From positions 2,073,001-2,137,000 of the forward strand of contig NZ_CP051183.1 of the NCBI RefSeq assembly GCF_012295615.1: a stretch of 64,000 nucleotides of DNA. Reading direction: 5' to 3'. Below are positions 1 through 3,719 of this stretch, one piece after another. Each line of letters starts with the position of its first letter. The first letter of the stretch is position 1. The DNA comes from Bermanella marisrubri (GTDB lineage: Bacteria > Pseudomonadota > Gammaproteobacteria > Pseudomonadales > Oceanobacteraceae). The notes beneath the pieces were generated by a model. The model was given only the letters and a program-made list of their open reading frames with translations, did no database searches and had not been told where the DNA came from. The position numbers were made by a program, and so were the translations under genes.

Positions 1-68
1 ATTTTTTGGATTGCCTCATCTAATCTACAGCCTACAGCACTCACTCGACCTCCCTATGCATAACATCT
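1..68. other. Left flank of the insertion sequence, unassigned
   Basis: Only 68 bases precede the insertion sequence, too few to identify a gene. Read on the minus strand there is a GTG at 44-42 behind a purine-rich GGGAGG, followed by 14 open codons to the window edge. This could be the start of a cassette gene, but a stretch that short is easily open by chance. If the neighbouring intI is a functional integron, its first cassette should lie here, outside the insertion sequence. Confidence 0.3.
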
Positions 69-80
69 ATGGACACCCCT
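69..80. repeat. IS sub-terminal inverted repeat, transposase 3' side
   Basis: ATGGACACCCCT is perfectly complementary to 1365-1376. It marks the end of the insertion sequence that contains the long non-coding segment. Confidence 0.88.
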
Positions 81-311
81 GTTTTTTGCAAGCAAAATAT
101 TTAGTAACAAGAGTAGTTTTGCAGCCATCTATTCGGATTCTATTTAAGGCCTGCAGCCTTGATCCCTGATGAACTCCGCTGACTTGGCTCTAATCATTTT
201 ACCGTTTTCAAAGAAACGATGTTAGGCACAGAATCTCCAAGTCACGGTCTTACCTGTCTTGTCATCAACTATTTTACTAAGCAAAACTGGATGATCTTTA
301 ATTTAAAAGCT
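81..311 (-). ncRNA. Candidate seek/bridge RNA region of the IS1111-group element
   Basis: This 231-base segment lies between the transposase stop codon and the inverted repeat and has no convincing ORF. IS1111-group elements encode their guide RNA in the non-coding part downstream of the transposase gene, whereas classical IS110 elements have it upstream. The size and side fit. Visible structure includes a short hairpin, AAGGC (146-150) with GCCTT (156-160) around a CTGCA loop. The RNA ends and the guide loops cannot be fixed from sequence alone. A GTTAGGC heptamer at 221-227 matches the integron R' core consensus and may be relevant to targeting, or may be chance. Confidence 0.5.
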
Positions 312-1328
312 TTAGATTGTAGCGCAATACTGTGATTGCTTTGCAAGTATTGCCCATGCAATACGCACTAACTTGTTTGCCAATGCAACAATCACTTTAT
401 TTTTGTGCATTCGTTTGAGCAATGCCATGATCCATTCATGAAATGGCTTACCCTCTTTTGTGTGCCTAATTACTGCCCTAGCTCCATGAATAAACATACG
501 TCTTAAATATGCGTCTCCACGCTTGCTTATACCAAGTAATAATGCCTTACCGCCACTCGAATGCTGACTCGGAACAAGACCTAGCCAAGCAGATAGTTGA
601 CGGCCAGATTTAAATTCCTTTGCATCACCAATACTTGCGACCAATGCCGAAGACGTTAACCGCCCTACACCCGGAATTTCTTGAACCTTCTTGCACTGTT
701 CACTTTTACGACTTGCAGAATCAATCTGCCTATCTAATTCCTCTAAGTAAGCTTCGATATCAACCAAACGCGTGTGCATAAGCTTGATATGATTCAACAG
801 CATGCTTGGTATCTTGCTTTCTAATACCCCAAAATCTTCTCGGAACCACTTTCTAAGTCGAAATCTTCCTGCCGGTATTGATATACCAAACTCATGGAGA
901 CTAGCTCTTATTCGATTTATTAGGGAAGTGCGATCCCGAACAACACCGTCACGTTCCCGATGCAATAAAAGCAGTGCTTGCTGCTCTTCACTCTTAACTG
1001 TCACAAATCGCATCGTGGGGCGACTAACAGCTTCACATATAGCCTCAGCATCAGCACTATCATTCTTGTTTGTCTTAACATAAGGCTTTACGTATTGTGG
1101 CGGCATCAGCCTCACCTTATGACCGAGCTTTTTTATCTCTCGAGCCCAGTAGTGAGCGCTGCCGCAGGCTTCCATCCCTACGAGACAAGGCTCTATGTTT
1201 GCCAAAAACTTTAATACTTGGTTTCTACGCAGCGCTTTATTTAGGAGCTTCTTTCCATACTCATCAAAAGCACATACTTGAAAAACAGACTTAGCTAAAT
1301 CAATACCTATTGCATGAATCTGGTTCAT
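312..1328 (-). CDS. IS110-family transposase (IS1111 group)
   Basis: This 338-residue protein is a full-length DEDD transposase/recombinase of the type that moves circular insertion sequences with a guide RNA. The RuvC-like N-terminal domain shows GIDLAKSVFQV with D10, then E53 in GMEACGSAHYWARE, and D90 and D93 in KNDSADAE, which together make the DEDD set. The C-terminal transposase_20 domain begins near residue 213 (VQEIPGVG) and contains the serine-rich PSQHSSGGK at about 253-261, where the family's catalytic serine is expected. There is no frameshift or internal stop, so the gene appears intact. The ATG lies 36 bases inside the right inverted repeat. Confidence 0.95.
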   Translation of the reverse strand: MNQIHAIGIDLAKSVFQVCAFDEYGKKLLNKALRRNQVLKFLANIEPCLVGMEACGSAHYWAREIKKLGHKVRLMPPQYVKPYVKTNKNDSADAEAICEAVSRPTMRFVTVKSEEQQALLLLHRERDGVVRDRTSLINRIRASLHEFGISIPAGRFRLRKWFREDFGVLESKIPSMLLNHIKLMHTRLVDIEAYLEELDRQIDSASRKSEQCKKVQEIPGVGRLTSSALVASIGDAKEFKSGRQLSAWLGLVPSQHSSGGKALLLGISKRGDAYLRRMFIHGARAVIRHTKEGKPFHEWIMALLKRMHKNKVIVALANKLVRIAWAILAKQSQYCATI

Positions 1329-1364
1329 AACAACCTCCTATTTAACTGACCAACTCAGTATAGA

Positions 1365-1376
1365 AGGGGTGTCCAT
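1365..1376. repeat. IS sub-terminal inverted repeat, transposase 5' side
   Basis: AGGGGTGTCCAT is the exact reverse complement of 69-80. A 7-bp inverted repeat, CATTATT (1379-1385) with AATAATG (1388-1394), lies directly outside it and may be part of the insertion target. Confidence 0.88.
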
Positions 1377-1590
1377 TTCATTATTTTAATAATGCGCGTG
1401 CGCGTTTTTCCGGTTTCGGAGATAAGGCGCAATCGAAGCTAAGTATTTGAAAGTAATGGTTTTTTTGGAGAATTCCATTTCATGCTCAGCGGCAAAAACG
1501 CGCATGCTCGTTTTTCCAGAAACACGAGGTCCTCTATGCACAGCGCTTGATTTTATAATGCCTTGATTTTGCAGGTTTTTTCTAAGAACC

Positions 1591-1631
1591 GCCAGTATAA
1601 ACGCGCATTTTTTGTGCGCGTTTATACTGGC
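1591..1631. repeat. Perfect 17-bp inverted repeat upstream of intI
   Basis: GCCAGTATAAACGCGCA (1591-1607) pairs perfectly with TGCGCGTTTATACTGGC (1615-1631) around a 7-base T-rich loop. It ends 34 bases before the LexA box. It has no immediate T run after the right arm, so it is not a classic terminator. It might be a protein-binding palindrome, a transcription insulator, or a structured single-stranded recombination element like those used by integrons. Confidence 0.85.
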
Positions 1632-1664
1632 ATCTGTGTTGATTTTCTCTTTTTTAGAAATACA

Positions 1665-1680
1665 CTGTATATATATACAG
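1665..1680. promoter_or_regulatory. LexA (SOS) box upstream of intI
   Basis: CTGTATATATATACAG is a perfect CTGT-N8-ACAG palindrome with an AT-rich centre, the gammaproteobacterial LexA operator. It ends 23 bases before the intI ATG and overlaps the likely -10. LexA repression with SOS induction of integrases is established for several mobile and chromosomal integrons. Here it is inferred from the site. Confidence 0.88.
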
Positions 1681-1703
1681 ACCTAAAAAGAAGGGATTGA
1701 AGC

Positions 1704-2663
1704 ATGGCAAGGAGCCCATTTTTAGACAAGGTGCGCAACCGTATGCGCATGGCTGGTTACAGTGAACGCACGATCAAAACCTATATTTATTGGATTAAGT
1801 ATTTCATTCATTTCCATGGTAAGCGTCACCCAGAAACCCTCCATAATGATGAGGTTTGTAGCTTCCTATCTCATCTCGCTTCAAATAAACATATGGCAAT
1901 TAACTCTCAAAAGACAGCATTAAATGCTTTAGCTTTTTTATACAACCAGTTCCTAAAGCAGCCATTAGGAGATCTGGGCTTTGTTTACGCTCAAAGGCAG
2001 AGACGATTACCACAGGTGCTCACTCAGCAAGAGGTGAAACGCATTATCAATGAGCTTGGTGAACGTGATCGTTTAATCGTTTCATTAATGTATGGTTCGG
2101 GTTTGAGGATTAGCGAGTGTCTGCGCCTTAGAGTTAAGGATATCCACTTTGAGACTGGCAGTCTGGATGTGATTGATGGCAAGGGTGGTAAAGATCGTAA
2201 AACTATTTTGAGCAAGAATATTGTTGGTGATTTACAAAATCAGATACAAAACTCAATAGCCCTGCAGGAAAAAGATAACTTGAGTGGGCTTGGCCCTTCC
2301 CTTCCGGGTGCGCTTGGCCGTAAATTACCCAATGCGTATCGCCAACCTGCTTGGATGTTTGTTTTTCCATCAACCACTATTTGCAAACATCCAATTACAG
2401 GTATCCATTGTCGTCATCACTTGCACGAAACGGTTATGCGCAAGGCTTTAGCTAAGGCTTGTAAATCGGCTGGCATTTATAACAAGAGAATTACTTGCCA
2501 TACTTTTCGTCATTCTTTCGCCACTGAGCTTTTGCGGGCAGGTAGGGATATCAGAACCGTTCAAGAGTTGCTGGGTCACAAAGATGTCTCAACGACACAA
2601 ATTTATACTCATGTCGTTGGACAACATTTCGCGGGGACTGATAGCCCCCTAGATTTGATTTAA
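1704..2663 (+). CDS. intI: Integron integrase IntI (tyrosine recombinase)
   Basis: This 319-residue tyrosine recombinase would catalyse insertion and excision of gene cassettes at attI and attC. The SAM-like N-terminal domain covers about 1-90. The catalytic domain shows R135 (GSGLRISE), K160, H266 and R269 (CHTFRHSFA), H292 (LLGHKD) and Y301 (IYTHV). All are offset by 11 from the catalytic residues of IntI1, so the set is complete. The extra segment at about 194-225 (LGPSLPGALGRKLPNAY... then FVFPS) is the additional IntI-specific helix that separates integron integrases from XerC/D. An AAGAAGGG ribosome site precedes the ATG. Expression is probably under SOS control through the LexA box. 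The gene points away from the left edge, so cassettes would lie leftward in the opposite orientation. Confidence 0.95.
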   Translation: MARSPFLDKVRNRMRMAGYSERTIKTYIYWIKYFIHFHGKRHPETLHNDEVCSFLSHLASNKHMAINSQKTALNALAFLYNQFLKQPLGDLGFVYAQRQRRLPQVLTQQEVKRIINELGERDRLIVSLMYGSGLRISECLRLRVKDIHFETGSLDVIDGKGGKDRKTILSKNIVGDLQNQIQNSIALQEKDNLSGLGPSLPGALGRKLPNAYRQPAWMFVFPSTTICKHPITGIHCRHHLHETVMRKALAKACKSAGIYNKRITCHTFRHSFATELLRAGRDIRTVQELLGHKDVSTTQIYTHVVGQHFAGTDSPLDLI

Positions 2664-2684
2664 TTGCGTTTTAAAACTATGCGT

Positions 2685-3719
2685 TTATGGCGCTGGGTTA
2701 CTATAGCGCTTGTGAATGGCATTAATCTCATCAATGATTTCTTGCTTGAGTTCAATATTGATTGAATCAATATTTTCTTTTAATTGCTCCATATTAGTCG
2801 CGCCAATAATATTAGCGGTTAAAAAGCCTTGCTGGTTTACAAACGCTAATGCTAGCTGTGTCGGTGTTAAGCCATTGTCTTTGGCGAGTTCTGCATAGAG
2901 CTTAGTTGCTGCTGTTGCTTCGTCATTGGTGTAGCGCGAGAAACGCTCCCACAACGTTAGGCGCGCGTTAGCGGGTGCGTCGTTTAGGTATTTACCAGTT
3001 AGTACGCCAAAGCCCAATGGGCTGTAGGCAAGTAAACCAATCTGCTCGCGCCAGCTGATTTCTGCCAAACCTACTTCGTAACTTCTGTTCAATAAGTTGT
3101 AGGGGTTTTGAATACTTACTGGGCGATCAAAGCCTTTTTCATCACAGATTTGCAAAGCTTTCATCACACCCCATGGGGTTTCATTACTAAAGCCCCAGTG
3201 TCGTATCTTACCCGCTTGCTTGAGTTCATTCAGCGCGCTTAACGTTTCTTCTAGATCTGTACTTTGTTCTTCCTGTTTTGGAGTAAAACCTAATTGACCA
3301 AAGAAGTTGGTATTGCGATCAGGCCAGTGTAATTGATAGACGTCGACATAGTCTGTTTGCAGTCGTTCTAAACTCGTATCTATGGCTTGCATGATATGGT
3401 CACGGTTCAAGCGCGAGCCACCGCGAATATGACTTAACCAATCGCCAGGCCCTGCCACTTTGGTAGCCATGATGATGTCTTCACGTTTTTTATGCTTGGC
3501 AAACCAAGTGCCGATGTACTGTTCAGTTAACCCTTGGGTTTCGGGCTTAGGCGGTACTGGGTACATTTCAGCCGCATCAAAAAAGTTGATGCCCTGTTCT
3601 ACGGCGTAATCCATTTGTTCATGTGCTTCGGCTTCGGTGTTTTGTTCACCCCATGTCATGGTGCCCAAACAAATACGACTGACGTCAATAGATGTATTGC
3701 CCAGCTTTGAATGCTTCAT
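2685..3719 (-). CDS. tas: Aldo/keto reductase, Tas-like
   Basis: This 344-residue NADPH-dependent aldo/keto reductase has a TIM-barrel fold and is close in length to E. coli Tas (346). The catalytic tetrad is visible as D48 (FFDAAEMYP), Y53, K87 (MATKVAG) and H131 (YQLHWPD). The C-terminal NADP-binding region includes IIGATN near 309-314. An AGGGCAGG ribosome site precedes the ATG. It stands alone between intI and the lipoprotein gene. The physiological substrate is unknown; Tas was named for suppressing a tyrosine auxotrophy in E. coli. It marks the return to ordinary chromosomal sequence after the mobile segment. Confidence 0.88.
   Translation of the reverse strand: MKHSKLGNTSIDVSRICLGTMTWGEQNTEAEAHEQMDYAVEQGINFFDAAEMYPVPPKPETQGLTEQYIGTWFAKHKKREDIIMATKVAGPGDWLSHIRGGSRLNRDHIMQAIDTSLERLQTDYVDVYQLHWPDRNTNFFGQLGFTPKQEEQSTDLEETLSALNELKQAGKIRHWGFSNETPWGVMKALQICDEKGFDRPVSIQNPYNLLNRSYEVGLAEISWREQIGLLAYSPLGFGVLTGKYLNDAPANARLTLWERFSRYTNDEATAATKLYAELAKDNGLTPTQLALAFVNQQGFLTANIIGATNMEQLKENIDSINIELKQEIIDEINAIHKRYSNPAP

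Follow-up and report, generated by a model that had tools for sequence, protein, structure and literature searches.

A predicted two-loop guide RNA of an IS1111 element in Bermanella marisrubri matches the attI core of integrons and the joined ends of the element

Introduction

What directs an insertion sequence (IS) of the IS1111 group to one particular site? The question is raised by an element in a 64,000-nt stretch of DNA (the window) from Bermanella marisrubri (assembly GCF_012295615.1, contig NZ_CP051183.1, positions 2,073,001-2,137,000 of the forward strand), whose genome is 3.55 Mb in size. The original prediction proposed a guide RNA in the IS1111 arrangement, made from the downstream end of the element. 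That proposal is supported by a covariance model, by a second genomic copy and by matches between flanks and guide. Very probably this is a mobile IS1111 element with a two-loop guide RNA, one loop being directed at the core of the integron attI site and the other at the element's own ends. The predicted target and the apparent match of the second loop to the joined ends go beyond what had been proposed. RNA-guided IS1111 elements are already known, as are IS1111 elements at cassette attC sites. In the literature on attI together with IS1111 or IS110, no attI targeting was found reported; ISfinder and the two original attC papers lay outside this comparison, and the novelty is therefore provisional. 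If the reading is right, the element carries a natural RNA guide aimed at the entry point of integrons, platforms that collect genes including resistance genes. All features given below are on the minus strand unless noted otherwise.

The element and its transposase

The whole element is 1318 bp long (66-1383), and its junctions are kept in relatives and agree with the empty attI of family genomes. Perfect 12-bp sub-terminal repeats had been described, and both are present, ATGGACACCCCT on the left (1365-1376) and AGGGGTGTCCAT on the right (69-80), with 12 of 12 bp matching. Limits drawn at these repeats (69-1376) are too narrow, as the element continues into a 7-bp left extension, TAATGAA (1377-1383), and a 3-bp right extension, AGA (66-68). 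Extensions of 7 and 3 bp are the published rule for IS1111 (PMC11187229), and there is no target duplication. The occupied junction is an empty attI split by the element, with no base gained or lost.

The DEDD (RuvC-like) transposase of 338 amino acids (312-1328) is intact, as predicted, with the domains DEDD_Tnp_IS110 (PF01548) and Transposase_20 (PF02371), the residues D10, E53, D90 and D93, and the motif GLVPSQHSSG. It matches NCBIfam NF033542, 'IS110 family RNA-guided transposase', at 365 bits (cut-off 140). Its length falls within the 330-350 amino acids of IS1111 transposases, the GL-P----S(t)G motif of the group is present, and the repeats lie in the 11-13 bp range. The asymmetry of the non-coding space is exactly as first reported, 231 nt 3' of the gene against 36 nt 5'. 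Elements of the IS110 group have a long region upstream and no long repeats, whereas here the long region is downstream and the 12-bp repeats are present. Among solved structures there was none of an IS1111 transposase; ISCro4 and IS621 come nearest, with a weak match in the C-terminal part.

The insertion site

In the window the element sits between attI with its integrase gene and the first cassette. The attI region left of the insertion (1384-1680) is paralogous to that of the second copy and matches the empty attI of a genus member (L089/L107). Beyond it lies the integron integrase gene intI (1704-2663, plus strand; TIGR02249 integrase_gron, 380.6 bits against a cut-off of 265). On the other side (1-65) a T is followed by the core site G|TTATGC and the start of cassette 1, with an attC bearing the matching GCATAAC and ...GGCGTTA ends downstream. 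The cassettes are in the orientation of the transposase and carry attC sites that mostly end in GCGTTA.

The exact junction is given by the empty attI sites of family relatives, ...ATTAAAA|TGTTAGGC; between the insertion point and the integrase crossover, G|TT, there are 2 bp. The attI target is given as ATTAAAATGTTAGGC, and as AAATGTTA where it is contrasted with attC ends. Of 45 family genomes, 8 have the unoccupied site GCATGCGCACGATTAAAATGTTAGGC or a close variant; the controls gave no match. One such empty attI adjoins an intact intI with a LexA-box-like site (L107). Counted among the sites of these eight genomes is the variant AATAAAC|TGTTA, which lies in attI of another family genus, in L110 beside its own intI.

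Nineteen relatives with 59-79% transposase identity were compared, from Marinomonas, Shewanella, Pseudohongiella, Marinobacterium, Oceanisphaera, Marinobacter and Aliidiomarina. Their left flanks end in TAnnAAA or a close variant, and their right flanks, where the contig reaches, begin with TGTTA except in L015 (TGCTA). An intI adjoins the element in the window and in L005, L006, L007, L009, L014 and L017.

A second, identical copy with the same junctions is found elsewhere in the genome. The two copies have their attI-side flank in common for about 300 bp, diverged although the element is identical; on the other side the first bases are the same and the sequences then differ. The second copy has the same attI-type region without intI, followed by an open reading frame (ORF) of 738 amino acids. 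No empty attI of this kind is left in the window's own genome, both sites being filled, and searching that genome for a short pattern, 2 mismatches being allowed, yielded nothing above background. When 369 genomes of the class were scanned, no further close copy of the element was detected; the subfamily is rare.

Structure of the predicted guide RNA

The guide RNA had been placed in the interval 69-311. A structured RNA does lie there, but the RNA-like part is confined to 113-272, and 273-311 is poorly conserved. This predicted seek/bridge RNA core is formed of two stem-loops, which were examined in an alignment of 53 non-redundant elements over the conserved 160 nt. In the two-stem-loop structure 94.4% of cells are paired, compared with 22.7-43.9% when the partners are slid. 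Changes on both sides are seen in 20 of the 25 modelled pairs, and the covariation score of 0.53 lies above all 500 shuffles (0.20) and above the values with slid partners (at most 0.10).

A covariance model was built from 37 outgroup elements only (transposase identity at most 56%), with the window's subfamily left out. Over the whole window it gives a single match, at 113-272 on the minus strand (118 bits, E = 1.3e-37). It also matches all 19 attI-group relatives, the second copy (copy B) and two further elements. No Rfam family matches window positions 1-3000, even at E up to 1, so that no described model covers this RNA.

The target stem-loop (181-243) has an outer stem (237-243 with 181-187), inner pairs, an internal loop with the target arms and an apical hairpin. 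It comprises helices 2-4, in which 13 of 14 pairs have changed on both sides, and it also appears in the predicted fold. The short hairpin first seen at 146-160 (AAGGC-CTGCA-GCCTT) is the apical hairpin of the donor stem-loop; it is helix 6, with double-sided changes in 4 of 4 counted pairs.

Two relatives are unusual in this region. One locus (L008:2919-4502) has two right ends and two tandem RNA copies 250 bp apart. In another (L005:1663-1836) the main RNA is preceded, about 2.4 kb upstream, by a second and weaker match (62.6 bits), perhaps the remnant of an older element.

Predicted target guide arms

The match between RNA and flank follows a rule with two parts. One RNA segment is the complement of the 8 bases that follow the insertion on its right; after another 15-40 nt comes a second segment, equal to the last 5 bases of the left flank plus the first 2 of the right. 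For 41 diverse representatives the mean agreement with the element's own flank is 13.4 of 15, compared with 10.5 for the flanks of others, and none of 20,000 permutations did as well. The arms are 23-27 nt apart in nearly all elements. The rule, which spans about 30 different targets, offers a usable code for IS1111 RNAs.

In the window the top-strand target arm is GCCUAACA (227-220), complementary to TGTTAGGC, the attI core right of the insertion. The bottom-strand arm, UAAAAUG (201-195), equals attI across the insertion (...TAAAA|TG) and is complementary to the bottom strand. Together they score 14 of 15 against the element's own flank and 15 of 15 against the empty attI. A chance match was rejected on comparison with random sequences of the same composition, which reached these scores 3 times in 2,000 for the own flank and not once in 2,000 for the empty attI. 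Among the other flanks tested, only attI flanks score as well. The order of the arms, top-strand 5' of bottom-strand, is that of IS1111 seekRNAs, a class whose RNA purifies together with the transposase and is required for the element to move. The second attI variant is matched as well: two further family members (L104 and L105) have the left flank AATAAAC and the bottom arm TAAACTG at the expected place.

Several observations weigh against a guide aimed in this way at attI. In L104 and L105 one of the 6 core bases is not matched by the top-strand arm. Both copies in the window's genome have right flanks, TGTTATGC and TGTTATGA, that are at least one mismatch away from the guide; exchange of cassettes at G|TT after insertion, or tolerance of mismatches, might explain this. 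Sites in L011, L016, L019 and L020 keep only the bases paired to the guide, and neither attI nor intI can be recognised within 3 kb of them; attI is thus the chief site without being the sole one. Finally, the minimum free energy of the RNA is by itself unremarkable (z = -0.56) and was left unused as evidence.

A probable donor loop

Does the second stem-loop also guide? Its first arm, GUUCAUCA (167-174), is complementary at 6 of 7 positions to the left-end extension TAATGAA. The second, AAUAGAUGG (125-133), contains AUAGAU (127-132), which is the right end CATAGA joined to the T of the left end. In 53 of 53 elements, four bases of this arm are those of the right-end extension followed by left-end base 1, which none of 20,000 permutations achieved; shared ancestry of RNA and ends within lineages inflates the count. 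Seven sequence types are represented, e.g., AGA|T, GTA|T, GTA|C and CTA|T. The first donor arm, in turn, varies together with left-end bases 6-7: AA always occurs with UU, GA always with UC, and GG mostly with CC or the wobble UC. This fits the remark of Durrant et al. (PMC11208160) that in many IS1111 RNAs potential donor-binding bases lie within a multi-loop. A donor loop that matches the element's own ends is a trait of bridge RNAs, found here as sequence covariation. Since the second loop matches the joined ends, the RNA is probably a two-loop bridge RNA.

The chief competitor is a seek-only RNA, in which the first stem-loop guides, the second is structural, and the long inverted repeats allow the transposase to recognise the ends. 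In an assay, an 82-nt seekRNA of ISEc11 was enough for transposition, and the matches described for it were to the target only (PMC11187229). Moreover, the CAUCA of donor arm 1 could pair instead with UGAUGA upstream within the RNA. Without donor pairing it is hard to account for the identity of donor arm 2 to the right-end extension and first left-end base across all elements and types, or for the tracking of donor arm 1 by left-end bases 6-7. We regard the seek-only alternative as unlikely, though it deserves to be kept in mind; the donor-loop covariation bears directly on the choice between seek-only and true bridge RNAs.

Comparison with known systems and other targets

The closest known systems are the IS1111 seekRNA elements ISEc11, ISKpn4, ISPst6 and ISPa11 (Siddiquee et al. 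2024, PMC11187229). These have the same DEDD transposase of 330-350 amino acids, perfect sub-terminal repeats, extensions of 7 and 3 bp and a 3' non-coding RNA. The top-strand arm lies 5' of the bottom-strand arm, and a promoter forms at the joined ends (predicted for the element here). In contrast to them, the window element has attI as its target and a donor-matching loop, which is undescribed for those elements. The bridge RNA of IS621 (Durrant et al. 2024, PMC11208160) likewise has a target loop followed by a donor loop, each with two strand-pairing arms. Unlike in IS621, the window RNA is 3' of the gene, the element has 12-bp repeats, the target arms are in the IS1111 order, and a donor arm may pair upstream within the RNA, the multi-loop noted for IS1111.

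According to papers that cite the original accounts, members of the IS1111-attC group (Tetu & Holmes 2008; Post & Hall 2009) also enter an integron core site in one orientation; their target is the cassette attC, whereas that of the window element is attI, with TAAAATG in the guide against GGCG in attC. An attC-targeting element of this group whose place at the platform end of the array is accidental is nevertheless a conceivable account of the locus. The site has a GTTRRRY-type core, as in attC, and members of the attC group use an RNA guide (PMC11187229). Against this, the left flanks are attI, the attC ends of the array read GGCGTTA where flank and guide read TAAAATG, and no copy of the element was found at attC in its own genome. 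With a guide that does not match the attC ends and both copies at attI, attC was rejected as the target, and this account is very improbable. The passages covered of a 2022 survey of Shewanella integrons describe IS110-family insertions in cassette arrays, none of them in attC, and describe no attI insertions (PMC9229058). Even harder to believe is an attI insertion driven by the protein or by a hotspot, the RNA-flank match being a coincidence of shared ancestry: the subfamily members are related and their guides and flanks therefore not independent, but the rule holds over about 30 targets and diverged RNAs, in which neither the spacing (about 25 nt) nor the placement with respect to the insertion point changes.

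Expression and proposed mechanism

No clear promoter was found in or around the integrated element, where a sigma-70 scan gave promoter-like sites no more often than in shuffled sequence. In a circle, the joined ends would form TTGCAA-18-GATAAT (family means of 5.4 of 6 matches at -10 and 4.0 of 6 at -35). This is in line with the junction promoters reported for circles of the IS1111 family (PMC11187229). At attI the element is oriented like a cassette and has the integron platform upstream of it, and transcription from the platform could also reach it.

With the attI-directed two-loop guide as the preferred reading, the following scheme may be proposed. The 3' non-coding region would yield the guide RNA, which would be bound by the transposase. 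Loop 1 would pair with both strands of the attI core (...TAAAA|TGTTAGGC), and the transposase would thereby place the element between the integron platform and cassette 1, at a distance of 2 bp from the integrase crossover. Loop 2 would act in the circular intermediate, pairing there with the joined ends of the element (...CATAGA|TAATGAA...). The bottom-strand arm would tell attI (AAATGTTA) from cassette attC ends (GGCGTTA).

A more tentative suggestion, possible but short of probable, is that these elements are a distinct IS1111 lineage of integron-platform parasites, with a bispecific guide tuned to attI rather than attC. The guide would track attI variants between genera, TAAAATG with ATTAAAA|TG sites and TAAACTG with AATAAAC|TG sites. 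By filling every attI, such an element might block or redirect cassette capture and make use of integron transcription; whether insertion at attI freezes cassette capture is a question that the locus raises.

Other features of the integrons

A LexA-box-like sequence, CTGTATATATATACAG, lies upstream of intI in the window (1669-1684) and suggests SOS control of the integrase. At the second copy (L084:6277-8820) the attI region and a LexA-box-like site precede the 738-amino-acid ORF, making this an orphan attI; by eye, the C-terminal part of the ORF reads like a DnaQ-type exonuclease. In another genome of the same genus (G003) there are five attI-like sites (L107, L114, L117 and two further places), only one of which was found beside intI; of the orphan sites, at least one stands at the head of a cassette array of its own.

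Both cassette arrays also contain, outside the window, an IS1182-family element with a transposase of 525 amino acids (L083:1752-3555 and L084:2182-3985). It is located exactly at the attC core (...GCGTT|GAGGCTG...CAGCCTC|GTTA...), and the genome has five full copies at 84-100%. This is possibly a second, unrelated IS that targets attC.
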